Origin: Antedon mediterranea
Lineage: Eukaryota > Echinodermata > Crinoidea > Comatulida > Antedonidae
Assembly: GCF_964355755.1 (NCBI RefSeq)
Contig: NC_092670.1
Span: 397,001-461,000, forward strand
Length of the DNA stretch: 64,000 nucleotides
Direction of reading: 5' to 3'
Below the pieces are notes generated by a model, which saw only the letters and a program-made list of their open reading frames with translations, made no database searches and had not been told where the DNA came from. A program made the translations under genes and the position numbers. Below, piece by piece: positions 27,001-63,977 of the stretch. Every line of letters starts with the position of its first letter. The first letter of the stretch is position 1.

Positions 27001-30000
27001 TTCCTTTATTCTGCCTTTTATTAGTTACTGTAACATTGTATGGGCCAATAATTACCCTTCAAATCTTAATAAAATACACGTCCTTCAAAAGAAAGCTGTT
27101 CGTCTTATCTCGGGTAACTCACGTCTTGCTCATACTAATATCCTTTTTTATAACCTTAAACTCTTAACTGTGCACGATATTAATAAACTCCAACAATGCA
27201 TTTTCGTTTATGAACATATTAATTCCAAACTGCCTTCTAACTTTTCCTGTAATTTTTTAACTAACTCTGAAATCCATTCGTATAACACAAGAGCATCACG
27301 GGACCTTCATCTTCCTCAACCTAAACTAACTAAAATGAAACATAACATTCGCTATAGTGGTTCTAAACTATTCAATAATCTACCTCCCGAAATTTCATCA
27401 TCGTCTTCTAGCAAAATGTTCTCTTTTAAACTTAAAGAATATCTTATTTCAAATTATAACTAATTGTTTTCTCTATTTTGTAATATTTTTTTAACTTTAG
27501 AAACTTTTTCGAAATTGCTTCCTTTACTGTTGGTGTGTGTGTGTGTGTCTGTTGATCTTTATGTGTATGTGTAGTTATATGTTTACATTTATATATATAT
27601 AAGTATATAATCTTCTTACATGGCTTCCCAACATACAAGTTTCAATTGGATTTTTTTTTTCCAATTGATCGATACTTTCTTGGGTTTTTTTGCCTCTTTC
27701 ATTTTGTATATAACTGAATCATCTTTTTATACATTATGATTTACTGTATTATATCTCTAAAAAAAAAAAAAAATATTTATTTATAAAATATCAGAAATTA
27801 TAATGTTTTTTTACTCAAATATGAATGAAAGAAATAAATGTTTATTTGAATTGAATTTGAAAGTGTTACTGCCATTCATCAAGTATTAAGTGAGTGAGTG
27901 GCCTAGCGGTTAAGACAGTGCAACCTAATTACGTAGCCATAACATTGGCAAGGGTTCGAGGCTCACTCGCTCCATGTTTCTGGTGGTAGAATGAGTCTTC
28001 TTGGATAAGGACTATAAACCATAGATAGGTTCAGTGTACACATCTAGCTCGTGTGCACTTTAAAAAACCTAGTACATGTTTCGAGACAAGTAGGGTTACC
28101 CCGATGTACTAGTACATCACAGCCACCGATCATTACTAGGCCCTCTGGGAGACCAGTCTTTGATTGAAGAGGTCACCCAGTAAAAAGAAGAAAAGATAAA
28201 TAATAAGTAAGGTTTTGGTTTAAATTCTTTTTTCAGATACTTATTTTCTTTGTCAGTCAAGAGTTTGGTAATATTCCAGGAATACAAGGTCTCTTTGTAG
28301 CCTGTTTATTTGCTGGAACATTAAGGTAATATTTCCTAACTCCCTAGCTGCTGTAACATTGATTGATGATATTAAACATACCATTTTCTATAGACTTGCC
28401 CCAAGTCTGTATTGTTTTTTTTTATGATTTATTTGTTTTTATTTCGACCGCGATTTTTGTCTGAAAATACAGACTTGTGAAACACGTATAGAAATCGATT
28501 TGCAGACCGCAAACATCTGATAAGAATGACGTAGGTTATCATACCGTATTTGGCTATATGGGGCGGGCGGTATGTAAATATGGATTTCGAATCAACCAAT
28601 GATCATTTTGTTTCAAAATGAAAAAGATCGAGTACGTACAGTGCTGAATGTACGAATTACGATCGAGACTGTTGAAATATGAAATCGTGTTGCCAAGTTG
28701 TTTTGTTTTATTGTTTAGTCCTTAGCCTAGGCCTCCTTCGTAGGTCGTACTCAACTCGCACGTATGATCTGCCAAATAAAACGCCAATAAGAGGTAGGCC
28801 TACATACCACCACCGGCACACAACAGGATTCACACACAACAGACAGGGCTACGACACCACTACACAGAACAGGATAGAGTCTGGGTGGGAATTAAATCAA
28901 ATTATCTCCACGTAATATTAAATGATCCATTTCAATGTTTGATTTGCGGAGAAGCAAGACGAGTTTTCATATTCTTGGGAAAAATCCCATCAAATGTTTA
29001 CCAGACTACTACTAGGCATATAAAATCATTTCTAGCCTTCAGAAACTTTCATCAATGTACCCAAGTACATTGTCTAAACGTAACATAGCGCATGCGTACC
29101 ATCTTAGTTGTTGAGTCTTTGAAATTCTGAAATATGAATATTAAAACGGTGTACGAGTGAGTAGCCAATCGCATGCAGCTGAAACTAGTCAACCGGATAA
29201 TCTATGCACCAAGAATTCTTGGTGTCAAACCACGTGACTTTTGCGTGTTTCCCCAGACGGAGTATCCAAACTCAAGTAATACAGGTATGAAACGCCATAT
29301 GTGCAAAAATATTTATATTTTTACTAATATTAAGAAAAAACTCCGTCTGGAGCCCAGACTACATTTTCTATAGCATTGTTGCATCTGGGTTGAACTCCCT
29401 AGCTGCTGAAACATTGCTTGATAATATTAAACATGCCATTTTCTATAGCATTGTTGCATCTGGGTTGAACTCCCTAGCTGCTGAAACATTGCTTGATAAT
29501 ATTAAACATACCATTTTCTATAGCATTGTTGCATCTGGGTTGAACTCCCTAGCTGCTGAAACATTGCTTGATAATATTAAACATACCATTTTCTATAGCA
29601 TTGTTGCATCTGGGTTGAACTCCCTAGCTGCTGAAACATTGCTTGATAATATTAAACATACCATTTTCTATAGCATTGTTGCATCTGAGTTGAACTCCCT
29701 AGCTGCTGAAACATTGCTTGATAATATTAAACATAATATTGTTTTCTTTTTAGCACTGTTGCATCTGGGTTGAACTCCCTAGCTGCTGTAACATTGATTG
29801 ATATTGTTAAACCGATTCGAAGAGCAAGGAATAAAGAGGGCAGTGTTGCAAGTGGTCCTCAAGATAGGTCTGACACAAAGCTGTCAAAAATGTTAAGTAA
29901 GTTTGAAGTTTATAAGATATCTTGTATGTTGTATGTTTTAAAACAGGACGGTAGCTGTCACTCATCTGTGGTTGTGAATGTACAATTTTAGAAGTATGAA

Positions 30001-32501
30001 AAGTAAGACATATATCTTTTTTTATATTTCCTTTTGTGCATTTATATATCAGATATACTATTGTTACTGTTATGGGGGATGTGCATAGAGGTGCTTGTCA
30101 CCTGTTCATCCTATCTGATATACTATTGTTACTGTTATGGGGGATGTGCATAGAGGTGCTTGTCACCTGTTCATCCTATCTGATATACTATTGTTACTGT
30201 TATGGGGGATGTGCATAGAGGTGCTTGTCACCTGTTCATCCTATCTGATATACTATTGTTACTGTTATGGGAGATGTGCATAGAGGTGCTTGTCACCTGT
30301 TCATCCTATCTGATATACTATTGTTACTGTTATGGGGGATGTGCATAGAGGTGCTTGTCACCTGTTCATCCTATCTGATATACTATTGTTACTGTTATGG
30401 GGGATGTGCATAGAGGTGCTTGTCACCTGTTCATCCTATCTGATATACTATTGTTACTGTTATGGGAGATGTGCATAGAGGTGCTTGTCACCTGTTCATC
30501 CTATCTGATATACTGTACTATTGTTACTGTTATGGGGGATGTGCATAGAGGTGCTTGTCACCTGTTCATCCTATCTGATATACTATTGTTACTGTTATGG
30601 GGGATGTGCATAGAGGTGCTTGTCACCTGTTCATCCTATCTGATATACTATTGTTACTGTTATGAGGGATGTGCATAGAGGTGCTTGTCACCTGTTCATC
30701 CTATCTGATATACTATTGTTACTGTTATGGGGGATGTGCATAGAGGTGCTTGTCACCTGTTCATCCTATCTGATATACTATTGTTACTGTTATGAGGGAT
30801 GTGCATAGAGGTGCTTGTCACCTGTTCATCCTATCTGATATACTATTGTTACTGTTATGGGGGATGTGCATAGAGGTGCTTGTCACCTGTTCATCCCTTT
30901 CTTTTCGCTGCCTTTATGTTATGTTCAGGATCAAGTTTAATAAATAAAATTAAATAAACATTGGTTACATTAATCTTTCTAAAGGGTTAAACCTTAAAAC
31001 ATAGCAAAACGCTGGGCGTCAGCAGCCGAGGTGTGTATGGTGTGTAAACTATGTTAGATGGGTGCCTAACTTAAAATATCAGTTCCCGTAAAGAAGACAC
31101 ATTCTCACTATTCTAAAATAGGAATAAATGTGTGTTTGTAATTTTCAGCATGTGGATATGGTGTGATTTGTATACTGTTAGCATTTGTGGCATCTAATAT
31201 TGGGAGTCTAATACAAACAGCAAACACCGTGTTTGGTGCAGTAGGAGGCCCTCTATTGGGTTTGTTTTCTCTTGGTATTCTCTATAGGCGTGCAAACTCG
31301 GGGTAAGTTTGACTATTTTATTATTTTTATTTGTTTATTTATTTATTTATTTTTTCATCATACGTTACCATTAACAGGGCTGAAAGATATAACATATAAT
31401 ATAATATGATATTACAGATAACAAGACAACATTTAGATATTAGTGACATGATAATGTTAAAATATCAAAATAGAGTTGTATTGTATTTTTTATACCACTA
31501 TTTTGGAATCTCTTTATAGCGGTGCTTTAGTTGGCCTGTTGTCAGGCTTTCTCATTTCCTTGTGGATCACCATAGGTGCTATTACCAACACACAGGATGG
31601 TGTTGTTAATCCTGATGTCTTTGTATTATATCAAGTAAGTATATTAAAGAACAGGATTTAGTCTTTAGAGGTCAACTCTAAAGTCAGTATACAACAAGTA
31701 CAAATAGAGCAATGGATGCATGATGAACGTATATTATGTATTGTCTTTGTTCTATGTTGTACAACCAAGATTTATCAAAATATAAAAAATATACAAAATG
31801 TTAAAAATGCCTTTGAAAATGAATTAGTATTTGTATGTATTCTATTCCACAGATATCTTTCTTATGGTATAGCACAGTTGCTTTTCTCACTACATTTCTA
31901 GTTGGCATAGCAACAAGTGAAATTGTCAGGTGTGCATTTGTAGATGAGCAGCGTAAATCTGTTGACCTTTTGACCCTGGCGACATTTCTAAGGTAGGTCA
32001 ACAGGTAGAAGATTTTAATATCACTGCCTGAACCAGTTTTATTGATTAATGTGATGTGCCCATATATGGACATGATGATGTCATATCACTACTATATTTG
32101 GGCATATCACTACCATATTTGGGCACATCACACTTTTTTTGTTAAACTAGTTTGAAATGTAGACAGAGCCAATAGTTGTTTATCGTCTTATCTAACAAAA
32201 TTTGTAGTTCTTCATGTTGAATTGTTCTACTTCCAAGCTATTGTCCTGCAACAAATGTTGTTGATAACCTTTGCAGCTGTATGTAAACTTATTATGTTTA
32301 TCTGTGATTTTAATTGTTTTCAGGCCGAAAGGATGGAGAAAACCATCATCATCATCAAGCACCTCCATAAGCCTAGATGACTCCTCTAGAGAACAGCTCT
32401 TAGGGCAAAATGACAGTGAAGATAATGAGGAGGATGGTGGTGGTGGTGATAGTTATGTAACAAGTAAAGAAACGTCTTTAGCAAATAACGTGGAGAACTA
32501 A
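18052..32501 (+). CDS. SLC5 family sodium-coupled solute cotransporter, 14 coding exons
   Basis: Exons: 18041(ATG 18052)-18203, 18506-18725, 19038-19155, 19268-19335, 19621-19775, 25032-25172, 25594-25679, 26171-26217, 28237-28325, 29754-29896, 31149-31302, 31520-31634, 31853-31992, 32324-32501. They total 1,806 nt, 601 codons plus stop, with all phases consistent and GT/AG ends. The product is a multi-pass plasma-membrane symporter resembling the SMCT/SMVT branch (SLC5A6/A8/A12). Blocks include FLMADRSM, ILGIPAEIFKHG, GGIKAVIWTDVFQ, SQTAVQRFL, GLFVACLFAGT, STVASGLNSLAAVTL and GGPLLGLFSLGIL. The exon 9/10 junction forms the Na+-site helix (STVASGLNSLAA). A Ser-rich, acidic cytosolic tail ends the protein. 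Known family substrates are monocarboxylates, biotin/pantothenate and iodide; which applies here cannot be read from sequence. The introns are very repeat-rich. Confidence 0.93.
18285..18351. mobile_element. MITE fragment, GGCCAATTTACACAGA family (right end)
   Basis: CCGCTTACCGTTACCCCTCA then TCTGTGTAAATTGGCCTTAA matches the right end of the complete copy at 49424-49617. The left end was not found. It lies in SLC5 intron 1. Confidence 0.55.
19372..19495. mobile_element. MITE fragment, CTCTGTCTACACTATCAAAC family
   Basis: TACACTATCAAACTTTATGT, ATGCCCATATATGGACA, CATATCACTACCATATTTGG and GGGCACACC appear in the same order as in the copies at 32041-32165 and 61352-61430. Both outer termini are decayed. 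Located in SLC5 intron 4. Confidence 0.65.
19836..21748 (+). repeat. 58/60-bp satellite in SLC5 intron 5, about 33 copies
   Basis: The unit contains ACTGTCAAATTATTATAAGC, TCTATCCCGTACTGTAT and GATTCCCTCACTTACCTATG. It alternates between 58-bp units and 60-bp units carrying an extra TA (GATACTG versus GCTATACTG or GATATACTG). Marker variants (CAGTCAAATT at about 20401 and 21389; GATTCTCTC at about 20566 and 21554) recur at 988 bp, showing a higher-order duplication of about 17 units. The array starts about 60 bp after the exon 5 donor. Confidence 0.93.
21795..23404 (+). mobile_element. Helitron-like non-autonomous element, unit 1
   Basis: This AT-rich unit, about 1.5 kb, ends in a hairpin (AACTCGTCA, 3-nt loop, TGACGAGTT at about 23375-23395), then five bases and CTAGT at 23401-23405. 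That is the 3' architecture of Helitrons (hairpin then CTRR, insertion before T). The interior has repeated TGACGTCAT-type words. It aligns along its length with unit 2 (GTTGCGCAACGTGACTTACG at about 22033 against GTTGCGCAACATGACTTACG at about 23542). The exact 5' end is unclear, near the T-run at 21811-21832. No Rep/Helicase frame is visible. Confidence 0.5.
23405..24905 (+). mobile_element. Helitron-like non-autonomous element, unit 2 in tandem
   Basis: A diverged direct copy of unit 1 that starts where unit 1 ends. Its terminus is again GCGGATAAC, hairpin AACTCGTCA-ATG-TGACGAGTT, then TCATGT and CTAGT at 24902-24906. The two copies share AGTTGCGCAAC, ATGACGTCATCATGTCTAAA and GCTATTGGATTGTAGATA at matching offsets of about 1.5 kb. 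Head-to-tail tandem copies are a known Helitron behaviour. Confidence 0.5.
25350..25505 (+). mobile_element. LINE 3' end remnant
   Basis: The translated phrase FKKELKTHLIQAALIFNSV matches the typical C-terminus of L2/CR1-type reverse transcriptases. It is followed by a short 3' tail with TTATTATTATTATATTATAAATAAT. It lies in SLC5 intron 6. The preceding GTAGGGGGTTACCCCAGTGT resembles a piece of the SINE at 27890-28195. Confidence 0.5.
26235..26812 (+). repeat. 22-bp minisatellite in SLC5 intron 8, about 26 copies
   Basis: The unit is GCCATTAGGACACAGTGTGACT-like, with ACACAG/ACGCAG and GTGAC/GTTAC variants. It begins about 25 bp after the exon 8 donor. Its last copies abut the LINE fragment, and AGTGTTACTGCCATT reappears at 27862, just after that LINE. 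Confidence 0.92.
26813..27860 (+). mobile_element. 5'-truncated non-LTR retrotransposon (C-terminal reverse transcriptase)
   Basis: An open frame of 214 codons (26819-27463) covers only the region after the palm domain: KFLGVLIDQELNFKNHI, ILPFISYCNIVWANNY, LQKKAVRLISG, SYNTRAS and LFNNLPPEI. This is the CR1/L2-type C-terminus. A 3' UTR follows, with a GTGTGTG tract, and ends in TTTGAATTGAATTTGAA. The frame is intact, so insertion is fairly recent, but it lacks the endonuclease and catalytic motifs. Confidence 0.8.
27888..28195 (+). mobile_element. tRNA-derived SINE
   Basis: GTGAGTGGCCTAGCGGTTAA carries an A-box-like TGGCCTAGCGG, and GGGTTCGAGGCT about 50 bp later matches a B box (GGTTCGANNCC). 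The head resembles a Ser/Leu-type tRNA, but the stems are not convincing, so I do not call it a tRNA gene. A body of about 220 bp follows (GGATAAGGACTATAAACC, GGGTTACCCCGATGTACTAG), with an A-rich end near 28190. Located in SLC5 intron 8. Confidence 0.65.
28326..29753 (+). repeat. Exon-10-derived tandem repeat with decoy acceptors (75-bp period)
   Basis: Intron 9 contains copies of the start of SLC5 exon 10 with its acceptor: TTTTCTATAG|CATTGTTGCA, GGGTTGAACTCCCTAGCTGC. The decoy AGs end at 29373, 29448, 29523, 29598 and 29673 (exact 75-bp steps). The real acceptor, TTCTTTTTAG, ends at 29753, 80 bp further. A partial copy also follows the exon 9 donor (28326-28391) and is split from the rest by an insertion at about 28392-29360. 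The repeats are open in frame with each other, but the 80-bp last step shifts the frame and reaches TGA at 29771, so use of a decoy would truncate the transporter. Confidence 0.88.
28392..29360. mobile_element. Unclassified insertion splitting the exon-10-derived repeat
   Basis: Repeat sequence CATTTTCTATAG stands on both sides (ending at 28391 and starting at about 29362). The roughly 970 bp between them is unrelated to the repeat. It begins ACTTGCCCCAAGTCTG and ends CGTCTGGAGCCCAGACT, weakly inverted ends. It contains a short frame starting MKSCCQVVLFYCLVL (28679-28915) that looks like a signal peptide, but I do not support it as a gene. The family is unknown. Confidence 0.45.
30047..30896 (+). 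repeat. 65-bp satellite in SLC5 intron 10, about 13 copies
   Basis: The unit contains GATATACTATTGTTACTGTT, ATGGGGGATGTGCATAGAGG and TGCTTGTCACCTGTTCATCC. Spacing is exactly 65 bp (for example 30061, 30126, 30191). One unit near 30511 has a 5-bp insertion, and copies differ by only one or two bases. Confidence 0.93.
32041..32165. mobile_element. MITE, CTCTGTCTACACTATCAAAC family (left end lost)
   Basis: GATGTGCCCATATATGGACA, CATATCACTACTATATTTGG, GGGCACATCACACTTTTTTT and AAACTAGTTTGAAATGTAGA followed by CAGAGC match the right half and body of the copy at 47795. Located in SLC5 intron 13. Confidence 0.7.
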
Positions 32502-32985
32502 ACACCACAATTACTTAATTTTACTCAGAGTTGTTACACCCAATATGCACTAATAGCTAGAGGGCATTAGGTTCAGTAATCGAAGGTCACAGCAGCACGA
32601 GGTCAGCACCCTACAAGACAATAATGATACACGATGTACAGTATTAGATGTCGAACCACAATGGCCGCATCATTCGTGTTATCGTCTTCTCATTGTTTGG
32701 ACGGTACCAATCGCTACGAGGGGTATTCCTTAATGGTACCAATTTTTAGGGGGCGCTATTTTTATATCTTTATTTCAGACTATAACAGAGTGAATTGGGA
32801 GAGATTATTATTTTAAGGTAATGGTATTAGAGTATCTTTCAATTTAAATGTCTGTCGGTGAAAGGGAATATTTTTATATATAATATTTATAAATACTAAT
32901 TTAAACTTATTTTATAATGACTTTACGCAATTCACTTTTTAAAATATGTTGAGATTTTCGTTTCCATTTATTTATTTTACATAAT
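32502..32985 (+). other. 3' UTR and flank of the SLC5 gene
   Basis: No further coding exon. Probable 3' untranslated region. An AATAAA lies at 32991-32996, at the edge of the next satellite. I cannot locate the true cleavage site. Confidence 0.4.
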
Positions 32986-36480: not shown

Positions 36481-36489
36481 CGCCCAAAT

Positions 36490-37350: not shown

Positions 37351-37357
37351 GTCACGA

Positions 37358-37502
37358 CCGTAGTGACGCCATATGATGCGTAGTGACGCCTTATGACGCG
37401 TCGTGACGCAATATAACGCGTAGTGACGCCGTATAACGCGTAGTGACGCCGTATAACGCGTAGTGACGCCGTATAACGCGTAGTGACGCCATGTGGAGTG
37501 TA
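37358..37502. repeat. 20-bp CpG-rich minisatellite in the SYT17 3' UTR
   Basis: About seven copies of CGCGTAGTGACGCCGTATAA, with variants at the left end (ATGATGCGTAGTGACGCC). It lies immediately 3' of the SYT17 stop codon on the minus strand. High CpG is notable in otherwise AT-rich DNA. Confidence 0.88.
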
Positions 37503-37507
37503 ACGCA

Positions 37508-47427: not shown

Positions 47428-50400
47428 TCATAAGATTGGTTTGAGATGGTCAGACAATTTCTGGCAGTAGATGTCAGTTCTGTGCTTATGTCGGACAGCT
47501 TCAAGTTCATCTAGTAGCAGTGATGGCTTGATTTTACCTGCTTCCTTTAACACATCTGTAAAACAAACAACAAAAAAGCATTGTTAATGTTCTAGCTGGT
47601 ATTGACTGATAATAGACTCCAGAATTTGATGCTGGTAAAGTTTTAGTTAGGTTAATGTGGAAATATGTTTTTGTTGAATTTACAGGCTGCCTGGTTATAG
47701 TGTGAATAAACATCTATCATATCAACTAAAAAAATCCTTTTAAAAAGGTTTATTCAACAGAAACAAACATTTTTATTCCAAGGATGCACGATATAAGCTC
47801 TGTCTACACTATCATGTGACAAAAATGATGTGGCCATAATTATATGGCCACATTGATGTCGTATCACTACCATAATAAGGAATATCACACTTTTTTTTTG
47901 TCAAACTAGTTTAGTAGTGTAGACAGAGCTGTAGAATGCTTGCAATATGTGTTTTGTGATCCAAATATTTAATTTAGTCTAAATAAATAAAAAATGAATG
48001 AAATAAGTCCTACCAAGGAGTTGCTGTTGAATGTGTGGATCAGGATCATCAAGATGTACCAATAGTCCTTTATACATTTCTTGCAAGTGAGCACCATATA
48101 AGGACGTGTCATAGTTCACAGGAAAGCATTGGAAGTATATCAAGAAGGTCTTAGCAACAGCTACTCTGATGTCATCACTGCTGTCATCCAGTCGTTTTAA
48201 TAACTCTACATAAAAACTGTGTAAGTGGTCTGGATCAAAGCTCTTCCCACAAACAAGTAGAAACTTGCTGAAAATACGACAAGTAATGAGTCTGGTAGAT
48301 TTCACTTCGTCCTCTAGAAGGCTTTTCAACTGTGTCAACAGGTCTTTTGATAATTCAATTGTCTGAAAGAAAAATGTGTAAGGTGATTTATTAAAAAGAC
48401 ACAATGTTAGTATATGGCCTTATATATGTCCTTACAAAATGTTTTAATATTTTATGAAATATGTGGTGGTATATAATGATGGAAATTGTTTAATATGAAT
48501 AAACAACCCGAGAGTTTTATAATTTTATTTAAGCTTTCTTGTTCCCGACACCCGACCTTTTCAGCTTTGGCTGCTGGTGGGAATTTGATGATTTTTAACA
48601 ATAGTAAATAAATAAAATAAATAGTTTGGTACCTGTTTTTGAGTGAGAAGTTGACTTTGAAAGAGAGCCCAAAGGCAGGATACAGCTGTGGTCCTGACAG
48701 CTGCACACACTCTGCCTGCATGCCAGACACAATTTGGTAGTATCATGTCCTTAACTACTATAGTGGCAAAAGAACCAAAGCCTTGCTGGGAATCAATGGA
48801 AGCACCAGAATTCATCAACAGTCGTGATAAGAGTGAAAAGAACTTAAGTCGAAGTTCAGCATCTTTAGTTGGTTGAAGGTTTTCACTCAGCATGGGAATG
48901 ATGTCCGTTAGAAGAGCACCGAGAATTACTCCTGTCAACAAACAGTTTTACATTCATTTATCATCAAACAATGGTCATTATTACAAATAATGCTCTAAAC
49001 GAACACTACTATTAAATATTATTATTATTCAAAGTGTAATTCAAGAAAAGCATACAGGCAGCCAAATGCTGAAATGAGTACAATTTTACAGATATAAAAA
49101 CTTTCAAATTAATGTAATAGTAATCAAACATTAAAAAACACATCCAGAACATTCAACACCTTATAATAAAGATTTATCATGTATTATTAGCGTTCATCAC
49201 CATAACCATATATGGTAGGATTGTAAGGGTAAACCTTTTGTACATGCTTAATAATGTTCACTACTATTAAATGTTCTACACTGACCAAGAGATGGCAATT
49301 AACCACAACCCTGTGCGATAATTAACATCTTTGATTATCTACTTGTGAACTCTGAAGTCCTCCACAAGAAAGGGTTTCTTATGGCTGATAAGATTGGATT
49401 AAATTAAAAAATTTAAAATGCTTAACGGCCAATTTACACAGACAAGCGGTAACGTTAATACAAATATAGAATCTATGTTATTCATTATGACCATTTACAC
49501 ACAACACGGAGCAGACAGGTGGTTTCCGCTCAGGATAGATACATATTGTATGTGGAACAACCTATGCAGTTTTCCTCTTACTATTACTGTACTTCTCGTC
49601 TGTGTAAATTGGCCTTAAGTGTATTTAAATAAACAATACCTGCTTCAGTAAGTAAAGTGTCAAAAATTAAACGTTCCAAAGAATAATTGTTCCAATCCTT
49701 ATAATTTCCCTTCAAAGTCTCCAGCAAATCTTTTGTATGTTTTTCATACAGTTCAGTTGTGTTACTCAAACCCTGGATGTTGGCAAGTGTTTTCAGTGAG
49801 ATGTTGGCCTATTGACAAACCAAATTAATGTTTCACATTATGTGCAATTTTGAATCACATAACAAACATGGTAATTTACCAATTTCAACATTAAATGCAT
49901 GTAGTGTCCTGTCAACAACTTTGCATGATTGTCACTCTCCTCTTTATCAGAATACTACCTCCTGTATCCACAAATTAAACATTATGTACAGAGGTAAGTC
50001 TATACTCTAAATATTGTCTGTCTTTGCATTGTGATTTTTACAGTTTTATTGTTTTTTTATAAGATTTTTAATGTCTTTTTTTGAAATGTTTTTTAATCTT
50101 CTATTGATCTAAAAAAAAAACAGGACCATATGTAAAACAAGTGCAATATCTATTACCTGATGATATGTAAAACAAGTGCAATATCTATTACCTGATGATA
50201 TGTAAAACAAGTGCAATATCTATTACCTGATGATATGTATCATATGTAAAACAAGTGCAATATCTATTACCTGATGATATGTTTTTAAACAGTATAAATT
50301 TGTTTTTAAATAAATAAATAAATAAAAACAAATCCACAATATTAATAACTTTATCATTAATCTTTTTGTTTCTGTCTGTAAATGTGTTTGAATTCATTCA

Positions 50401-53400
50401 AGTTTATATTTACCTCAGTATGAATATGTGCATCTCGAGCGAGTGCCAGCATATTCAATAAGACTGTAAACAATTGCAGGCTGGATGACTGGAGTCTATC
50501 TGGATATTTACTTCCTGTTGACATGATGGCATTCACACAGGAAACTAGTTGCAGTTGGTACAATGCCTAACAGAGGTGCAAATGATTGTAAATGTTATAT
50601 ATAAAATTTCTGTAGCTGCTTCTTGGTTTAATAACAATTACACTGAAAAAAATTCTAATAAAAAAACTTACATTTTCAACTCGACAGACTTCAACCTCAG
50701 CTAATGTGGTTGATATTTCACTCATGTAAGCCTCAAACAAGTCAGGCCTTGAGCCTCTAATAATAGCAGCCAACGTCATGAGGACATGAGCACTTTGTGT
50801 GCTTTTCAGACTGGGTAAAATCAGTTTGCAGTACACCTCTGGACAAACATACCAGCCTACAATTTCAGCTGCTTTAATGACCTGAAATAATAAATGTATG
50901 AGCTTGATGGTTAGCAATAGCATGCCTTTTTCTTGTACCTCAAGTTCTGGGTTTAATGGCAGACTAGACTATTCCACTCCCTAAGTCTTGAATGAAACTT
51001 AAATATAGTTATAAAAAGCATGATATTTATTATCAGACACTGGCCTGATGTGTAGACTTAATTCAACTGAAAATGTTTTAGTCTCAACGATTATAGGCAA
51101 CGTCTTATATAAGTCAAAGATGCTCTCCAGGTGGAATGCCATCCTGAGATGAGAGCTTTTAGTGTCAACGATTATAGGCAACGTCTTATATAAGTCAAAG
51201 ATGCTCTCCAGGTGGAATGCCATCCTGAGATGATTAGTGGTATTTATTATTATTCAAGGTTTATTTATTTCAATTGTTCTTGCAGTTAATAAAAAACTGA
51301 ATTACAACAATCTTGACAATATATAAAAATTGGATACATAATATAAAAACATTTAACATTAAATTGTACTGTACTTATGGGTTTCTTCTCTATAGGGGTG
51401 GTAACCATTCTTTAAATTCAGAATTAAAGGGGGATTCTGGGTTTAAAATTGCTTTTAAATATCGTTTATTTATTAAATAAAAAATATCATAACAATATAG
51501 ACATGTCAGAATGAAGAAGTAATAACGAGAAATTAAAAAAAATTAATTTCATATACATTTTAGGGTAAATTCATGGAAAGTCTGTTTTAGCAGCTTAGGG
51601 AAGCTCATTAATATTCATGAGATATTCACAAAATCACGTCATCAGTGGATTCCAAACTCGCGACGTCATGTACGTTGTGTTTGTTAACTTCAAATCTCTC
51701 TCCGAGAGCCTAAATCATTTGTTTTCATGGGTGAGAGCCATTCTGACTAGGGATTCCATGCCACGATGGCTACGTTAAAACATTGGGGCCCATCATGGGC
51801 CTAGCTAGCCTACTAAACGATTGGCCCATAATAATAAAACTCGGTGGATTCCAAACCTATCCTATCAACCAAACTCCTAAACAATCTAAACCTAAAACAT
51901 TCTACAAAATCGGCTGTAAATATTGAGGCAAAAAAGGTACGATCGCCGTCCGCACGTATGGTGTCCCGATCGTCTAAAAGTAGGCCTAAAATAGGCCTAG
52001 TTTACTCTCCAAGAAAGCAGATACTGCATCAAGCAAGTAGACCAGGTAGTAGGAAGGAGACCTAGCCGATTCGGCCCAGTTAAAAATTGAGCTAGCTAGT
52101 GTAGTAGACCCTATATGCGAATTGATACTACCAGGCCTTTTAATAAAGTATTATAGGCTTGTTAAAATTAGCAATATACTTATGTTTACAAATATTCCAA
52201 CTCTCTCATTCGAGCTATATTATCTATACCATTCCGGTAGGTCGAGTCGACCTTCAACCAAATACTGTACATCGTTCATGTTGTGATTATAGACGGGGTA
52301 TACTCGACCCGACCAGTTTGGTATTGTATACTGTATCTGCTTATCACGTGACATGCCAGGCATGGGCAGGTAGAGCACGTGTATCGTCGTCTCGCTCTCC
52401 CCGCTCAGCAGGAATGCATACGTTACGCTTCATTGATTTTGAAGGCTTTCCCTAAGTCAGTGCGAAAATCGGCAAACGTAAAGTGCAAACATATCTAATT
52501 TTTCACTGTTTTGATGAATTTTCATAGAAAATTGACTTTATAAATGGGAAGACCGACTAAAATTACATTAGATAAGTATAATTTCACAAAAGTAATTAAT
52601 ATGGTTAATGATAACGAGTCGTCGGAACATTGACCATTTCACGAATTTCCTATTCTGTAAACACAGTGTCATATCGCCGTAGCTGCACTTGCAATCTGGC
52701 CTCATTTCACAGCCTTCGTTCTGCTTCACTGGTCGCTCATATAAATTGAAACTTTTACCGTTCAAGAGACAAACAAATATATTTTACATTTTTTACTATT
52801 CATTTTAAACCCGGAACCCCCCTTTAAGTAAAGAAGTACCAAACTTAATACATAATTCGGTTCTTTGTTCCTTAAGGGGTTGTAATTTTAAAATCGAACA
52901 AGCTGCTTCATATGAGACATAATTGTGACCTAATGTGATTCGACACGCACGTTTTTGTACTCTTTCAATAGCATTGGTATGTTCATCGGTGAGGTTTGGG
53001 TGCCAAACCGGTGTAGCATATTCTACCACAGGTCTAACGTAACTTAAGTAAATCATTAGGTCAGGCTTTGGCAATGAAAATTTAGTGAGAAGTTTGAGCA
53101 TATGAATTCTACCATTAGCACGTTTGATCATATCTTGAACTTGGAGGTTCCATTTAAGATCGGAACTAATATGTAGGCCTAGAATTTTGACGGAGTCAAC
53201 CACATTGATAATCTCGTTATTTATACTTAATGGTTCAATATTAAGTGCTGTTTTCATAAAAGTGACATTCATAGAAGCACATTTACTTGGATTAAGTTTC
53301 ATAAAATTTTCATTTCGCATTGTATACTTCCCGTGGGTAAACGATTGGGCATTGTCTAGTTAAGAACTGGAATGCCTGCTGCAACTGACGTGAGGTTGTT

Positions 53401-56371
53401 ATTTATCAGATTAGCAGCAGCTACATAGTTTTTTTCGTCAATATCTGGAGGTATGTGTATTTTAACACAACTGGTTTTTCCGGCACCTGCTAATTGTTTA
53501 ATTTCTTTGTGCCATTGTGCTGGATTACTTTTTTTATGTTTCTCAATACGCGTATGGTAAAAATCTTTTTTTGCAAGCGATACCTCTTTGATAATTTTAT
53601 TTCTTAGTTGTTTCATATTTTCCTTGTTTTGGGACCGAAACGCTATTTGTCTTTTCTGTATTAATTTCTTGATTTTTTGTGTCATCCACGGTTTATCCCT
53701 CGTAAATCGTTTTACAGTTTTTTTCCGGGAAATGGGAGTTGATTGATTTGGTGAGTAATTTGGTAAAACGTGTCACACTTATTCTGGACGCCAATAGATT
53801 CCGATACAGCTTTCCAATCTTCATGGACGATCCAGGATCCGAATTCGCGTATGCTGGATTCCTTTAAAGTAATTGTAATATTGGCTTGTATCTTTAGGTT
53901 TCCAAATTATTGAGTTATGGTCACTAACACCAATAGGTGGGTATTTAGTACAGTCTTGTTTATTTTAAATTAATTTATGTAATGTAATTTTACTTTCTAT
54001 GGACCAGAGACACCGAACTAAAAGATTGAATGAATAAAAAAGATTGAATATATATTGTTGTACCAACTGCAGATTGATTGAATTATCCACCCTCTGGTTA
54101 GATGTACTGTATATGAAATACTAAATGATCAACAATGAACCTCTTGAATACATACCCTTTTTACAATCTCTGGCTCCTCGTCTGCACACGCTCTGTACAT
54201 TCCTGTCAGTAATTTCTCCATGTGTTGTGTGCTATTGTCCTCAGAATTGATGAGCAAAGTGTGGAGTAATTTCACAGACATCAGTCGGTTAGCAACAGTC
54301 CAGTCAGTTAGGTCTTTCAGAAGGCCTGGTAAAATCTTGGACATATTTCGGAAAATCAATGTACGACATCCAAGTCTAGGCCTAGAAGCTGAAAAAAAAT
54401 TTGAAAGAATAATTCATCTTTTGACAAATTGTTGTTTAATATTTTCTTCACATTGCTTGCACACCTCCACTATCATAGTATGATCATAGAGATATTATAT
54501 AATATCTCTATGGTATGATGCACACCTCCACTATCATAGTATGATGCACACCTCCACTATCGTAGTATGATGCACACCTCCACTATCATAGTATGATGCA
54601 CACCTCCACTATCATAGTATGATGCACACCTCCACTATCGTAGTATGATGCACACCTCCACTATCATAGTATGATGCATACCTCCACTATCGTAGTATGA
54701 TGCACACCTCCACTATCGTAGTATGATGCACACCTCCACTATCATAGTATGATGCACACCTCCACTATCATAGTATGATGCACACCTCCACTATCATAGT
54801 ATGATGCACACCTCCACTATCATAGTATGATGCACACCTCCACTATCATAGTATGATGCACACCTCCACTATCATAGTATGATGCACACCTCCACTATCA
54901 CAGTATGATGCACACCTCCACTATCACAGTATGATGCACACCTCCACTATCGTAGTATGATGCACACCTCCACTATCATAGTATGATGCACACCTCCACT
55001 ATCGTAGTATGATGCACACCTCCACTATCATAGTATGATGCACACCTCCACTATCATAGTATGATGCACACCTCCACTATCATAGTATGATGCACACCTC
55101 CACTATCGTAGTATGATGCACACCTCCACTATCGTAGTATGATGCACACCTCCACTATCATAGTATGATGCACACCTCCACTATCATAGTATGATGCACA
55201 CCTCCACTATCGTAGTATGATGCACACTTCTTACCAATTCCCGGCGCAATCTCCAATTCTTCAACAAAATTAATTTTATTCTTCAATTCTTCCTCATTCT
55301 CTTCTTCATACTTGGCACCAACTTCATCCCACAGTTTGTAAGCCTGCAAGAAAAAAAAAATTTCAATAAATCAACTGTTTCAACAATTCATTGTTTTGGC
55401 CACAATTAATTTTCTTTATTTTTTATTGATGAGAATGTGATAGATAGTATATAGTATTTTTAATAACTTCCTATTTTTTAGAAGGTAGAAATCATAACAA
55501 TAACCTTTTGATTAATATCTGGAAGTTCATCTGATTGGCTGGTTAGAAGAATTGGAATTAATTTATGATGGAACGAATAGCGGTCAACAAATTCCAATAG
55601 CCACCACCCGACAATCTCTGTGATGGCTAGCCGAACCGATGGTGCATGATCAAACAGACGTTGCGTAAGATGAGAGATAACATTTTCCATAGGCTTGTGA
55701 CTTCCAAATTGTAAAACGTCTCCTATCGTAATGATACACTGTACTCGTACTTTGGAATGTTGATGGCTGATACTTTGAAGAAGTGGGTTTATTAATGATT
55801 CGGACTGCATATGGAAATGTTCTGGAATCCCTCTTGCAACCTTACATGTGCACACACAGCTCTGTTTGCGAACCTCTGCATACGGATCTAATATTGTCCT
55901 TTCCATAATCTTAACAATGTCATCCAGGTATGGCGCAATCTTCTTGTTTGTCAAATCAACCGTTTTCGTCAACAATTCAACCAAATTAAGCCTTAATTCT
56001 TCTGCATTTTCCACAATATCTTGATTCCCTAGCCGCTGAACTATTGTTGGTATCAGGTATGGGAGGAACATTTCTGGATTCGAAACACTCTCCATAAAAT
56101 CACCCACTAACAAAATAGACAGCTCCCTACATTTTTCAACCTGATCTCCTATACTTTTCAACAGCGGCTTCAATAACCCATCAAAAACCCTTTGTAAAAC
56201 ATCTTTTTCTGGCAATGGAATCCGACCTAATGTTTCTTTTCTCATTCCATCAAGTGCCCTTTTCTTTACCATTCGTGTCCCTTCATTTAAACAATTTACA
56301 TGCCTTGCAACAGCTTGTAAAATAATATTAGATTTAATTTCTACACTTCCAACTTCTGAATTGTCCGCCAT
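47428..56371 (-). CDS. DNAAF5: Dynein axonemal assembly factor 5 (HEATR2), 9 coding exons
   Basis: Exons in transcript order: 56371-55505, 55343-55235, 54388-54156, 50881-50672, 50566-50414, 49808-49640, 48931-48633, 48362-48014, 47555-47428. They total 2,517 nt, 838 codons plus stop, in phase, close to the vertebrate length of about 855. The product is an all-helical HEAT-repeat protein needed for cytoplasmic preassembly of axonemal dynein arms. Recognisable blocks are PLLKSIGDQVEKCRELSILL, YAEVRKQSC, FDHAPSVRLAITEIVGWWL, SRPRLGCRTL, DWTVANRLMSVKLL, GWYVCPEVYCKLILPSL and LKEAGKIKPSLL near the C-terminus. I chose the Met of MADNSEVG; an upstream in-frame Met at 56422 would add 17 residues. 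Intron 3 is about 3.3 kb and carries a LINE with a nested transposon. Confidence 0.94.
47795..47932. mobile_element. MITE, CTCTGTCTACACTATCAAAC family, complete copy
   Basis: Both termini are present: AGCTCTGTCTACACTATCAT on the left and GTAGTGTAGACAGAGCT on the right. The body has GATGTGGCCATAATTATATG, TATCACTACCATAATAAGG and ATCACACTTTTTTTTTGTCA. Its terminus is the sequence amplified in the 42-bp satellite at 13770-15384. Located in DNAAF5 intron 8. Confidence 0.8.
49424..49617. mobile_element. MITE, GGCCAATTTACACAGA family, complete copy
   Basis: Inverted ends GGCCAATTTACACAGAC at 49428 and GTCTGTGTAAATTGGCC ending at about 49614. TTA lies on each side, possibly the target duplication. 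The interior has no coding capacity. Located in DNAAF5 intron 6. A right-end fragment of the same family lies at 18285-18351. Confidence 0.75.
50127..50282. repeat. 35-bp tandem repeat in DNAAF5 intron 5
   Basis: Unit ATGTAAAACAAGTGCAATAT, CTATTACCTGATGAT. About four copies, the last separated by an extra ATGTATCAT-type segment. Confidence 0.88.
51075..51240. repeat. 83-bp tandem duplication
   Basis: CAACGATTATAGGCAACGTC to GGAATGCCATCCTGAGATGA occurs at about 51085 and 51168, nearly identical. Located in DNAAF5 intron 3, next to the LINE 3' end. Confidence 0.88.
51238..53965 (-). mobile_element. Non-LTR retrotransposon remnant in DNAAF5 intron 3, interrupted by a TTAA-type transposon
   Basis: Minus strand. 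An endonuclease-end phrase, PPIGVSDHNSIIW, lies at about 53915, then the linker PWMTQKIKKLIQKRQ and RNKIIKEVSLAKKDF (53356-53700). The reverse transcriptase is internally deleted, because the next frame (53320-52805) begins at MKLNPSKCASMN beyond the catalytic box. The C-terminal region follows: DSVKILGLHISSDLKW, YVRPVVEYATPVWHP, RVQKRACRITLG. The frame stops at the nested element and continues on its other side as SEFKEWLPPL (about 51400). The 3' tail, with AATAATAATAAA, ends near 51238. Confidence 0.82.
51428..52823. mobile_element. Kolobok-like (TTAA target) non-autonomous transposon nested in the LINE
   Basis: Inverted ends AGGGGGATTCTGGGTTTAAA at 51428 and the complement of AGGGGGGTTCCGGGTTTAAA ending at 52823. 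TTAA lies on both sides (51424-51427 and 52824-52827). The host LINE reading frame matches up exactly across the insertion if one TTAA is counted, which proves the boundaries. TTAA duplication with AGG termini points to Kolobok; piggyBac is the alternative. No transposase frame was seen in the 1.4-kb interior. Confidence 0.85.
54475..55229. repeat. 26-bp minisatellite in DNAAF5 intron 2, about 29 copies
   Basis: Unit CATAGTATGATGCACACCTC, CACTAT, with CATAG/CGTAG/CACAG variants. On the gene strand it starts within about 8 bp of the exon 2 donor (exon ends at 55235). The other end carries a small inverted AGAGATATTATATAATATCT at about 54487. Confidence 0.93.
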
Positions 56372-56662: not shown

Positions 56663-59600
56663 ATGGCTGAATTTGTACAACAAAGTATCGAAGAAGCTCT
56701 GCCAGAGCTTGAACAACTTGAAAGAGTCGGCCTATTTACAAATTCAGAGATTAAGTATGCATAGCTTTAAAATCCAGGCCGTTTTTATAAATTACCTAGG
56801 TAGGCCTTACGCTAGCCAGGCAGGGTCCGAGCGAGTTGGGTAGACCATCGCGGGCGTAGGTGCTCTTGTCCGGTAGGCCCTTTCAGTCTGGGATAGGCCT
56901 AGGCTAACTTTTGTTATATGAAAACATCGGTATAATACTCCATATAGTAGATTTTTAAGTTGTTATGTTATATTGGATTGGATATTATTTCACAAATTGA
57001 ATTATAATATTGTTATGCAGGTCAATAATTAAGAAAAAAAGAAGCTATGAGTATAGGTTGGTTCGTAGACAAAAAGAAAAAGACGATTTTCTACGTTATA
57101 TTCAGGTAAATATTTCTGATTTTTAGGAATCCGTAACTTAATTAAATACTCGTATAGAATTTGTAAACAATCTAAAATAACATGTACATGATTTCCTTTA
57201 TTTTAGTATGAAATAAGTCTGCTGACCCTGATTAAGACGAGACGAGAGGTAAAGTACAACTGAATACCACAATGTCTGTGTGTCATATTGATAACAAAGT
57301 ACAACTGAATACCACAATGTCTGTGTGTCATATTGATAACAAAGTACAACTGAATACCACAATGTCTGTGTGTCATATTGATAACAAAAAAGAAACAGAA
57401 TAATAAATACATTTAATAAATTTTATTTCAGAAAATCAGATATTTTTTCAAGAAAGAGGAAATTGAGTTTAATATTGTGTCCAGGGTTGCCAGGCTATTT
57501 AAGGTTGGTGCATCATCTCACTTTCTTCAAAGTACAATAAATACTCACAATCAAGATAATATATAGAAACACGTCAAGGGACACACAAGCTTCGGCTTTA
57601 TAAGTCTCAACATCAAGTAAATCACTTTTATACTTCAATAACTGTTTTGTACTTTATTTCAGAGGGCATGTACACTGTTTCCTGATGATCTCAACATTTG
57701 GTTGTCTTATATGGAATTCCTCAAAAAATGGGTAAAGTTGTTGTAAAGTCTTCTACACAATCCTGTAAATGTTCACTGTAATAATATCTATGCTTTGTAT
57801 TTATCTTACTATTTTTATTTCTGTTTTACAGAATAAGAAAATAATGTTAAGCAAGATGCTAACAAAGATGCTGAAAATCCATGGCAACAATCCAGGTATG
57901 TAGTAAAATCTGTGGTAACAATCCAGGTATGTAGTAAAATCCATGGTGACAATCCAGGTATGTAGTCAAATCTGTGGTAACAATCCAGGTATGTAGTAAA
58001 ATCCATGGTAACAATCCAGGTATGTAGTCAAATCCATGGTGACAATCCAGGTATGTAGTCAAATCTGTGGTAACAATCCAGGTATGTAGTAAAATCCATG
58101 GTAACAATCCAGGTATGTAGTCAAATCCATGGTGACAATCCAGGTATATTAGTGCTCTCTCACCAGGTCTGCTCACTCAATTTAATTATATTAAAATTGC
58201 TTGTTTAAATCCTAAGGTATGTGGATAATGGCATCCAAGTTTGAGATGGAGGATAACAACTCATCTGAGAATGCTCGAAGTCTCCTGCTGCGTGCCCTTC
58301 GACATCATCCAACATCTCAAAAGATATGGCAAGAGGTAATATTTTCAAAGTAGATTAAGTTAAAACTTTTCAAATGATTGTGTTTTTGTTTTCAAGGTTT
58401 TTATATTTGTTATTTTTTCTTATAGTATTTTCGAATGGAGCTTATGCACGCTGATAAAGTAAGTAAACTTACATTCAATATTTCATTCAACATTGATTGA
58501 CACTTCACCTCACTAACTTTACAAATAAATCTGTAAAATGTCTTTTATTTTAATAGATACGAAAACGCTGGGCCTTGCTGAAGCAAGGGAACATGAAAAC
58601 TGATGAAGAAGAGATGACAGATAATGTAATGGAAGGTCTAGCAGCCAAAGTAGTGTACAAGAAAGCATTGCAAGCCATCAGCAATGACGCCAACTTCCAC
58701 ATGTCCTTTATTCCTATTTTAAAGCAATTTGATTTTACACAAAAACTGGAAGATGAAATATATGCAGAGTAGGTTGACTGTATAGTTACTTCATTAAGGA
58801 TAAAAATGATACAATTACCAAATCAACAAATGAGGCATATTATTAATAATAATTAGGAATTTTTAAGTGCATAAAGCGTGTATTTGCTGCACATAAAAAC
58901 AAAAGTAATCCATGAAATAAATATAAAAAAAAGAAAATTAAAAATGAGAGTAACAGGCCATAAAATATATGGATCTTAACTGAGTTGAATGGTTTATCGA
59001 GGGTGAAATATTTATTAACTAGTATATAGAGTAAACATGAAACCTAGTCATTATTGTAAATACATGTTTTATCCCTGTGTAACAATGTTGTTGTTTTCAG
59101 TGTTCAAACAAGTCATCCATCAAATGAAATAGTGTGGGATGCTATTGCTAGGAGGTGTTTAACGTTGAAGACAGGTGAACAGGAGGGTAAGACAATGTAC
59201 AACAACTCATAATGATCATTTGTGATAATATTAAGTTAAATTGACATAGGATAAACTTAAAAGTGAGTTAATAATTTGTGTTTTTTACTTTGCTAGAGCT
59301 AGAAGAGCAGTGTTATAAAGTGTATGAAGAGGCTTCAACAAAGTTAAATACAGACAAGATATGGTGCTTATATGCTGCCTTTTGTCTAGAAAGAATTGAC
59401 CAAAATGGTTCCTCAAACCTCAAGGAAAAGGTACATAGAAAATAACATGCTTTTAAGAATTACATTATTCATTCAACATTAAGTCACCACATTATAACAT
59501 GTTATACAATTTTGTTGTTTTAACTTAGAGAGCTGAGCAAGCAACACAAGTTCTAACAACAGCTGGTAAACATAGCAAATTGTCTGTAGATATTTATAAC

Positions 59601-61823
59601 AAATGGGTGAGTTACATGATAAGTATATATATAGTAGTATATTAGGTGAGTCTATAGCATTTGTCTAAATTCAATACAAGTGTGGCATGAATTTAACCAT
59701 AAAATAGTAGTATATTAGGTGAGTCTATAGCATTTGTCTAAATTCAATACAAGTGTGGCATGAATTTAACCATAAAATTCATTATTTGGTTGTTTTTAAA
59801 GGTTCGCCTATTATTGAGACTTGGTATGTTAGAAAAAGCGACAGCAACGGCTGTCATGGCAACTGAAGCATATCAAGATAGTGTGGCTTTGTGGATTCAA
59901 AGGTTAACTCTTTATTCAGCATTACTAGAAACAGGTAAGTGAGGTCAAAGGTTAACTCTTCATTCAGCGTTAATAGAGACAGGTCAGCGAGGTCATGAAA
60001 TCAAACAAATAAAAAAGAAAAACATGCATATGTTTTTCCCACTGCTAAACAACTCTCATGAAATAGAACTATTACATACTAAAGTAGAAGGTTATTAAAT
60101 TAATAAATAATTACTAACAAACAATGTAATATTAAAACTAAAAGTACATTTAATTAATTTAATTGTAGGAGATAAAAGTAGTAAGAAGATGATGTGTCAG
60201 TTGATTGATGAAGCGGTTATGAAAGTTAGACCTGAGGTGAGTAACCCATAATTCTTCATTTGATTAATATAACCTGAAGTTTCGGAGATAATTGTCTCAT
60301 TTCCTCATTATTGTTTTCTGAACCGTGACCTTGTTAATTTCATGTGAATGATGGAATCAAGTTGATCTGTATCTTTTTACAAAAGAAAACATAATGTGTT
60401 CGCACTAAACTCTTGATTGTTGCTTTTGAAGGATGCCTTGTTGCTATGGGAATACAGTTTGAATTGGTATAAGAAGAATGATCCAGATAATGTAGAATTA
60501 ATAATGGAGGTAATATACCAGACATTACTGGAGAGGATCTAATGACATATTAATGGTCTTAATACAATATTAGAAAGTGGAAATAAAAGATTTTATGAAT
60601 GGATGAGGAATTTGAAAGAAATTATGAAATATAAAAATTAAAGTATTCTTTCTTCATAATATAATGATGGTGATATTCTATGGTACAATTTCTATAATAA
60701 TATAACTTTAATACAGTAATAAATGGCACAAAATAGTAAAACGTGCTCTGTCTAACAATGATGAAGCATGTTAATATATTATAATACAGTAATAAATGGC
60801 ACAAAATAGTAAAACGTGCTCTGTCTAACAATGATGAAGCGTGTTAATATATTATAATACAGTAATAAATGGCACAAAATAGTAAAACGTGCTCTGTCTA
60901 ACAATGATGAAGCGTGTTAATATATTATAATACAGTAATAAATGGCACAAAATAGTAAAACGTGCTGAGGGTAGCCTATTTAGTTAAAAATGATCACTAT
61001 AAACAAATGTGTTGGTCTTTGATTGATCTAGGGAAGGGGAGCGATAACATAATATTAATAGTCTTGTCAAAAATATATATCAAAATGGAGGATGGTGCAA
61101 CCCAAGAGCTACCAGCTCACACTTGAACAATAATTGCTAAATTGAAAAACCTATTTTTATTACCTGCAGAGAGGATTAAGTGAAAAGGCTGAAATCTCAA
61201 TGGTTTTTACAGAGCATTACTTAGACTGGGCTGTCTCACAAGGCATTGGTAAACTAAGGAAGGCTTACAAGAAATTGGTTAGCTCTCGACCTTTGCCACC
61301 TGCATTTTATCACAAATATATCAAAATAGAGTTGTCAGAGGTAAGTGTGTAAAGCCCTCTACACTATCAAACTTTATGTGACCAAAAAATGTGATGTGCC
61401 CATATATGGACATGATTATTATAACTACCATGTACTGTAGTGACATAAACATTTTGAAATTTACTAAGGAAAAATCTTGAAATGAATTTTTTTTAAAGGA
61501 GAATCCAAAAGTGGGAAGAATCAGAGCAGCTTATGAAGCCGCAGTTAAAGAAGCTGGCTCTACAAATCCAGGTACAGTTTGCAATCGACCATTTTAGATT
61601 CAACCAACAATTTTGATTTACTTATTGAAGCCTCAAATTGAATACCAAATTACTTTATCTCTCAGGACTATGGTTAGAATACATCCGTTTGGAAATGGAT
61701 CCTGCAATGGGAAAGCCAGAGATGGTGAGCAAGCTGCATTGGCGCGCTATGAAGGGACTTGATGGAAACTACACGGAAGAGTTTGTGACTAAATACACCT
61801 TACTTCAAGCAGGCCATTTGTAA
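56663..61823 (+). CDS. UTP6: UTP6, small-subunit processome component, 18 exons
   Basis: Exons: 56663-56754, 57021-57105, 57207-57248, 57432-57503, 57663-57731, 57832-57895, 58217-58335, 58426-58458, 58557-58768, 59101-59186, 59297-59430, 59529-59606, 59802-59934, 60169-60236, 60432-60509, 61170-61340, 61499-61571, 61666-61823. They total 1,767 nt, 588 codons plus stop, in phase (human about 597). This HAT-repeat (half-a-TPR) nucleolar protein is part of the U3 snoRNP/SSU processome for 18S rRNA maturation. Signatures include the N-terminus LPELEQLERVGLF, KRSYEYRLVRRQKEKDDFLR, FPDDLNIWLSYMEFLKKW, LLRALRHHPTSQKIWQEYF, RMELMHADKIRKRW and the C-terminal QAGHL. An AATAAA lies at 61871. Several introns carry arrays that touch or copy splice sites. 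Confidence 0.95.
57251..57388 (+). repeat. 45-bp tandem repeat abutting the UTP6 exon 3 donor
   Basis: Unit AAAGTACAACTGAATACCAC, AATGTCTGTGTGTCATATTG, ATAAC at 57251, 57296 and 57341. The first copy starts 2 bp after the donor GT. Confidence 0.88.
57865..58150 (+). repeat. 31-bp repeat of the UTP6 exon 6 end plus its donor site
   Basis: Each unit is AAAATCCATGGTAACAATCC then AG|GTATGTAGT, copying the last 20 or so bases of exon 6 (ATCCATGGCAACAATCCAG) and the donor. The real donor follows 57895; decoy donors follow 57926, 57957, 57988, 58019, 58050, 58081, 58112 and 58143 (exact 31-bp steps). The last is the weaker GTATAT. Reading past the real donor meets stops quickly (ATGTAG). Confidence 0.93.
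59635..59780 (+). repeat. 73-bp tandem duplication in UTP6 intron 12
   Basis: TAGTAGTATATTAGGTGAGT to GAATTTAACCATAAAAT occurs twice, nearly identical. It is intronic and ends about 20 bp before the exon 13 acceptor tract. Confidence 0.85.
59890..59990 (+). repeat. 48-bp duplication of the UTP6 exon 13 end and donor
   Basis: The exon 13 tail CAAAGGTTAACTCTTTATTC, then GAAACAG|GTAAGTGAGGT, is followed 48 bp later by CAAAGGTTAACTCTTCATTC and GAGACAG|GTCAGCGAGGT. The second donor, GTCAGC, is weaker. Read-through from the real donor hits TGA at once (GGTAAGTGA). Confidence 0.88.
60711..60966 (+). repeat. 73-bp tandem repeat in UTP6 intron 15, about 3.5 copies
   Basis: ATACAGTAATAAATGGCACA, AAATAGTAAAACGTGCTCTG recurs at 60711, 60784, 60857 and 60930. 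No relation to exon sequence. Confidence 0.9.
61352..61430. mobile_element. MITE fragment, CTCTGTCTACACTATCAAAC family
   Basis: CCCTCTACACTATCAAACTT, TATGTGACCAAAAAATGTGA and TGTGCCCATATATGGACATG match the left half of the family. The right half is lost. It begins about 12 bp after the UTP6 exon 16 donor. Confidence 0.7.
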
Positions 61824-63046: not shown

Positions 63047-63051
63047 AAACA

Positions 63052-63977
63052 ATGCCTTCATCTTTCTTCGAAAGCAATGATGTCGACGAGTGGAGCAGAG
63101 TATTGGGCATTTACAAACAGGTTCTACAACTTAAAGCTTCTCAAATAAAGAAACCTGGAGCAGGCAAAACTTTGATTGAGCTAGACTACTGGTAAAAATT
63201 ATAAAAATAAACAGCTAACAAGCCAGTTTTAACGCTTTTGGAGCTCTATCAAACCTTGTACAGTAATCTCATCCAACCAACTAACATGCACATTAAAATA
63301 AGCAATATTCAGTATTTTAAAAGGCCCCAACCACCCCATAAATTATTTATCCCCTCTCCCCCTACACCCCAAACTAAATATGAGTATAACGTGTTAGGGA
63401 CTTTGATATACATTTGTACTGTAGTACTATCTATACAAGTATACATAATTATACAGTTATTATAAGTTTGTTTTTTTTATAAAGGTACCAAGAAGAGTTA
63501 TTATAAGTTTGTTTTATTATAAAGGTACCAAGAAGAGTTATTATAAGTTTGTTTTATTATAAAGGTACCAAGAAGAGTTATTATAAGTTTGTTTTATTAT
63601 AAAGGTACCAAGAAGAGTTATTATAAGTTTGTTTTATTATAAAGGTACCAAGAAGAGTTATTATAAGTTTTTTTTTTATAAAGGTACCAAGAAGAGTTAT
63701 TATAAGTTTGTTTTATTATAAAGGTACCAAGAAGAGTTATTATAAGTTTGTTTTATTATAAAGGTACCAAGAAGAGTTATTATAAGTTTGTTTTATGATA
63801 AAGGTACCAAGAAGAGTTATTATAAGTTTGTTTTATTATAAAGGTACCAAGAAGAGTTATTATAAGTTTGTTTTATTATAAAGGTACCAAGAAGAGTTGA
63901 GTGGTGAAATCCAAAGCAGAAAAGATAAATACCTAACACATGCTGAACTGAGCAAACTAATGAAATGGAAACTGGCA
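63052..63977 (+). CDS. Conserved uncharacterised protein, first two coding exons (gene continues off the right edge)
   Basis: Exons 63047-63191 (ATG 63052) and 63884-63977 join in phase: MPSSFFESNDVDEWSRVLGI, then LIELDYW|YQEELSGEIQSR and HAELSKLMKWKLA, with a GTGAGT donor at 63978. The phrase Y-x-E-E-L ... L-T-x-x-E-L-x-x-L-M-x-W-K-L is, from memory, typical of a small conserved eukaryotic protein family without an assigned function. I do not recognise a domain with known activity. The intron between the exons is filled by a 40-bp repeat built on the exon 2 start. Confidence 0.75.
63470..63883 (+). repeat. 40-bp repeat of an exon start plus its acceptor site
   Basis: Unit TTATTATAAAG|GTACCAAGAAGAG, then TTATTATAAGTTTG. 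Acceptor-like AAAG|GTACC copies precede 63485, 63525, 63565, 63605, 63645, 63684, 63724, 63764, 63804 and 63844, ten decoys. The true exon starts at 63884, where GTACCAAGAAGAG continues as TTGAGTGGTG. In every decoy the continuation GAGTTATTATAA gives an in-frame TAA. Confidence 0.93.

Follow-up and report, generated by a model that had tools for sequence, protein, structure and literature searches.

Do tandem arrays that copy an exon edge together with its splice site betray a process aimed at exon-intron borders, or can they be left behind by short duplications that fall across a border by chance? The question is raised by a 64-kb stretch of genomic DNA, hereafter the window, in which the original prediction described four arrays where an exon edge is repeated along with its splice site, and a further two that start within 2-8 bp of a donor. 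All six arrays were recovered by TRF, and comparison with rebuilt gene models, in which the predicted exon numbers proved correct, confirmed the four edge copies (SLC5 exon 10, UTP6 exons 6 and 13, and exon 2 of the last gene) and placed the starts of the two donor-adjoining arrays 2 bp (UTP6 exon 3) and 7 bp (DNAAF5 exon 2) past the donor. The arrays had been assigned to three unrelated genes; they sit in four. These are an SLC5-type sodium:solute symporter gene (18041..32501, + strand; 14 exons in the model, Pfam SSF), whose 5' end may be incomplete, DNAAF5 (47428..56371, - strand; 9 exons, open-frame model and Pfam), UTP6 (56663..61823, + strand; 18 exons, open-frame model, Pfam and alignment to human UTP6), and a last gene for which the Pfam search gave no match. 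The UTP6 model was colinear over its full length with human UTP6 (7mq8). The window also holds, at 8483-13417 on the + strand, a single 1644-codon open frame in which an 84 bp C2H2 zinc-finger unit is repeated in tandem about 54 times.

Two of the window arrays copy an acceptor and two copy a donor, all on the + strand. The array at SLC5 exon 10 (29362..29812; 75 bp x5.9) repeats the acceptor and the first ~60 bp of the exon, and the functional copy of the exon (29754..29896 in the gene model) is the 3'-most. The real acceptor scored 11.6 bits and the upstream decoys 2.6-4.2 bits. Part of this unit (44 bp) recurs at 28338..28381 (+ strand), 12 bp past the exon 9 donor, and ~1 kb of unrelated sequence lies between it and the main array. 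Both ends of intron 9 (28338-29812) thus carry exon 10 edge sequence, with the partial copy beside the exon 9 donor; an array may once have spanned the whole intron and later been split by this unrelated sequence, and the partial copy is a possible trace of an origin of the intron from an array. A SINE-like tRNA-derived sequence (gtgagtgagtggcctagcggttaagac...) is present upstream of SLC5 exon 9, at 27890-27975. In the last gene, where the coding part of exon 1 is at 63052..63191 (+ strand) and exon 2 starts at 63884, the array (63455..63898; 40 bp x11) copies the exon 2 acceptor AAAG|GTACCAAGAAG and contains 11 acceptors of similar strength.

The donor arrays are both in UTP6. The exon 6 array (57874..58147; 31 bp x8.8) consists of the exon end and the donor CAG|GTATGT, and of its nine donor copies eight are identical at 10.7 bits and one scored 8.6. 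At exon 13 (59802..59934, + strand, from the gene model and the human UTP6 alignment) the exon end and donor are repeated at 59897..59995 (48 bp x2.1); here the copies share 88% identity and the second donor has decayed from 12.3 to 4.2 bits. The two adjoining arrays, at UTP6 exon 3 (57251..57388, + strand; 45 bp x3.1), where the edge is not copied, and at DNAAF5 exon 2 (54513..55227, - strand; 26 bp x27.5), are accompanied in the same introns of the window by seven arrays that are clear of any edge (19837-21745, 26240-26807, 30047-30896, 50128-50282, 51076-51233, 59631-59778 and 60709-60966). In addition, a 73 bp dispersed repeat (57552-57624) lies between UTP6 exons 4 and 5, in the intron; about 39-40 copies were scored in the genome, those elsewhere at 75-100% identity.

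The reading frame indicates which copy would serve as the splice site. At UTP6 exon 6 (57832..57895, + strand) the frame is kept by the first donor only, and the outermost site alone likewise gives an open frame at UTP6 exon 13 and exon 2 of the last gene. If the second donor were used, the UTP6 protein would end after residue 143 at exon 6 and after 408 at exon 13; use of any inner acceptor in the last gene leads to a stop seven codons in, and the inner acceptors of SLC5 exon 10 would add a longer repetitive stretch that is followed by a stop. The original prediction had taken the expansion of the arrays into the intron, with their placement, as a sign of a process favouring slippage or repair at borders or of selection against copies that reach into exons. 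The direction itself was borne out, but it is a consequence of the copy that is used, because the decoys lead to stops: inner copies would be intron under any originating process, and the direction of expansion adds no information. The decoys match the real site in strength at UTP6 exon 6, at last gene exon 2 and at two loci outside the window described below (L087, and the C3 myosin copy m34 with eight at 9.3 bits), whereas they are weak or decayed at SLC5 exon 10, UTP6 exon 13 and CCT7 exon 3. Unit length was divisible by 3 in 5 of the 13 edge-copying arrays found in the window and in sampled loci, which is the chance level. Frame-preserving selection on unit length is thereby ruled out, and this lack of bias fits surplus copies that are untranslated.

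Such arrays recur elsewhere in the genome, in loci fetched regardless of their repeats. The assembly comprises 354 Mb, nearly all of it in eleven contigs of 22-41 Mb. The sample was composed of 3-4 kb pieces around exons of the chaperonin, aldehyde dehydrogenase and myosin head Pfam families and also took in five SSF genes; it amounted to 59 merged stretches of 218 kb (seven of them not picked by exons), plus 26 kb. To model the sampled exons we used a small spliced aligner, which reproduced the SLC5 junctions exactly. Nine further edge-copying arrays were found outside the window, bringing the overall count to eight donor and five acceptor arrays. Three of the donor arrays (units of 90, 85 and 87 bp) lie within 3.2 kb of one gene at C4:29705175-29708369, which we take to be CCT7, as we take the C3 family below to be myosin-19-like. 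The other donor arrays are in a C7 myosin gene (58 bp x13.6), the C3 myosin-19-like family (83 bp unit) and a C7 chaperonin gene (44 bp x7), and the acceptor arrays are in L087 (71 bp x3.1), a C5 myosin gene (52 bp unit, degenerate) and a C1 myosin gene (150 bp x2.2). Two additional sampled arrays (m23 and L085) adjoin a junction, and one myosin array (m19 1465-1520) was not counted because its donor is ambiguous. A 21 bp tandem motif (CATATCACTACCATATTTGGG and relatives), common to many loci unlike the locus-specific units of the edge-copying arrays, forms arrays of 2-4 copies across many unrelated introns; it was seen in the window at 19440-19480 and 32082-32131 and in stretches m4, m5, m10, m19, m22, m46, m47, m49, L085 and L086.

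The original prediction knew of no named system of this kind, but one was named in amphioxus in 2002: mirages, which are minisatellite-like tandem duplications across exon-intron boundaries (PMC3087553, PMC3902484). They were described for Adh3 by Canestro et al. 2002, as recounted in PMC3087553, and are also carried by the globins BflGb6 and BflGb9 (PMC3087553); PGBD5 and TnC were later added (PMC3902484). Amphioxus mirages occur at donors and acceptors and have a unit of about 10-160 bp, with many copies carrying AG/GT signals. The four window and nine sampled arrays resemble them in that the unit holds the exon end and the adjoining intron with its splice signal, in that both donor and acceptor boundaries are affected, and in that the correct protein comes from the outermost copy, here as judged from predicted frames. 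The window and sampled arrays are mirages by structural definition. They differ in being found in another genome, in that several per cent of the junctions sampled carry them, housekeeping genes included, and in that the copy-number differences were seen among 97-99% identical paralogs, the instability of mirages being one between alleles or tissues. This genome is probably not a cephalochordate one, as its 11 chromosome-sized contigs compare with about 17-20 chromosome pairs in amphioxus species. Intron creation by boundary-spanning duplications, as well as dual-specific sites, has been covered in PMC4974935 (potato RdRp) and PMC10809524. As in intron gain by tandem duplication (PMC4974935), the duplication here crosses an intron-exon boundary and the splice signals are inherited from the parent copy, but the arrays are seen to lengthen existing introns, and no new intron was seen. 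The units of UTP6 exons 6 and 13, CCT7 exon 1 and last-gene exon 2 contain AG|GT, as do the dual-specific AGGT sites of PMC10809524; however, the copies here are not in-frame protein repeats, and we found no evidence in these units of one site acting as both donor and acceptor.

We next consider placement. The test set was made up of 16 nearly fully modelled genes or parts of genes, which together span 79.4 kb and contain 248 junctions and 26 arrays; each array unit was put at random in its own gene, wholly exonic positions being thrown out. Nine edge-spanning arrays were observed against 4.7 expected (1.9-fold, P=0.024). The three complete genes of the window alone gave 3 against 2.3 (P=0.40) and the blind sample alone 6 against 2.4 (P about 0.017-0.018). 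The excess was lost under stricter counting: P was 0.16 without two borderline cases, 0.13 without CCT7, and 0.13 without both CCT7 and the window. Junctions in the modelled genes are spaced at ~320 bp and array units are mostly 31-90 bp; since the genes are so intron-dense, a randomly placed unit often spans a junction, and random placement alone yields about half of the observed edge-spanning cases. The claim that arrays are placed non-randomly is thus not established. A placement bias at junctions of up to ~2-fold is possible; a strong one is not supported.

These observations are best explained, in our estimate with a probability of roughly 0.8, if the arrays are mirages formed by small tandem duplications that straddled a border by chance and were then amplified, so that no border-targeting machinery is necessary. 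First, a short segment would be duplicated head to tail, probably through slippage or repair at a microhomology of a few bases, at a site that would be near random within the gene. The 45 bp and 73 bp arrays of UTP6 end in partial units of 3 bp and 2 bp, respectively, which is consistent with such short microhomology. Second, when the segment spans a junction, the outermost copy (the 5'-most donor or the 3'-most acceptor) would retain the correct protein and the remaining copies would fall in the intron and be removed, as the frames predict, whereas wholly exonic duplications would mostly be lost to selection. Third, copy number would drift via unequal exchange, and inner splice copies would either degrade or persist as strong decoys.

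The C3 myosin-19-like family offers a series of such states. Copies of the gene (more than 12, and more than 20 by exon matches) are spread over ~5.5 Mb at C3:19616601-25124037 (G000; L070-L076, L078-L079, L081-L084), an amplification that we consider unusual, and some copies contain stop codons. Thirteen copies were sampled, most of them 91-99% identical. The number of full copies of one exon edge is 1, 1, 1, 2 and 8 in five paralogs that are 97-99% identical (group A). In group A a partial second copy comes after the exon edge, and the other paralogs are unduplicated except m33, which belongs to a separate C3 lineage and has three copies of its own sequence type. Judged by sequence type, the family gained arrays at one exon edge at least twice. 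We read the series as the product of a small tandem duplication and of later unequal exchange, and comparison with the unduplicated copies suggests that the first duplication in group A occurred at a 2 bp microhomology. The trio of mirages in CCT7 and the repeated gain at one C3 edge form a counterpoint, in that the gain looks locally recurrent.

This local recurrence, together with the 9 edge-spanning arrays against 4.7 expected, would favour a mutational hotspot in which exon-intron borders are preferred for tandem duplication through R-loops, co-transcriptional breaks or polymerase pausing, and the non-spanning arrays also lean to the first 65 bp past donors (7 against 4.6 expected, P=0.10). 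We nevertheless regard a hotspot as unlikely. The arrays show no lean to acceptors (4 non-spanning arrays against 4.6 expected), the P value of the excess rises to 0.13-0.16 without the borderline cases or without CCT7, and array coverage is lower at junctions (2.8%) than at intron positions far from them (14.7%), a figure that leaves out the borderline cases because it is based on TRF ranges. In a genome-wide motif test, the consensus donor CAGGTAAGT was searched for twice at 20-50 bp spacing, with the reversed motif as a control. For 3315 donor motifs there were 10 distinct tandem sites, and for 2032 control motifs 12 (Fisher P=0.13, the donors having the lower rate), so no genome-wide excess over the reversed motif was found at this spacing; at 51-81 bp the donor gave 87 matches, which by our count add 16 distinct sites, and the control gave 30, the latter not reduced to sites. 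No evidence was found to support the R-loops or co-transcriptional breaks that the original prediction had proposed. A milder version, that borders in this lineage are ~2-fold favoured for tandem duplication and that a few per cent of junctions carry multiplied and still strong sites which the spliceosome ranks by position, we hold to be doubtful, although somewhat less so than the hotspot.

The retention of splice-site copies for function, as decoys, in recursive splicing, in regulation or as raw material for introns, as has been put forward for mirages and for AGGT dual-specific sites, appears improbable. Precedent exists for intron creation by such duplications (PMC3087553, PMC4974935, PMC10809524), and full-strength decoys are present at UTP6 exon 6, C3 m34 and the exon 2 acceptors of the last gene; however, identical copies are explained by recent homogenisation, use of the decoys leads to premature stops, unit lengths show no frame bias, and the decoys of SLC5 exon 10, UTP6 exon 13 and CCT7 exon 3 are weak or decayed. 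An assembly or collapse artefact is very improbable, because the copies are distinguished by substitutions and indels (identity at UTP6 exon 13 is 88%) and the pattern is shared by numerous unrelated loci and by paralogs of differing copy number. Insertion at borders of a dispersed, introner-like or transposon element with splice signals can be dismissed for the four arrays of the window. Dispersed repeats such as the 73 bp element of UTP6 do occur in the genome, but each unit is made of local exon and intron, none lies at many unrelated loci in the manner of introners, and none was found in the 354 Mb genome beyond its own locus (for SLC5 exon 10 this includes the partial copy in intron 9), which shows, as far as the search reaches, that the units are locus-specific and that no dispersed element carried them in.

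Taken together, our data indicate that the phenomenon is real, recurrent, already named and of ordinary mechanism, with a placement bias that is modest at most. What is new is the presence of mirages in a genome that is probably not that of amphioxus, and a paralog series showing their expansion. If the genome is indeed not that of amphioxus, mirages arise commonly as a by-product in genomes that are dense in introns and rich in minisatellites, and are no cephalochordate oddity. The near-identical C3 paralogs represent expansion caught in progress, and genes in which eight strong donors are identical, or eleven acceptors alike, are natural experiments on positional splice-site choice, as well as on how introns lengthen or arise.
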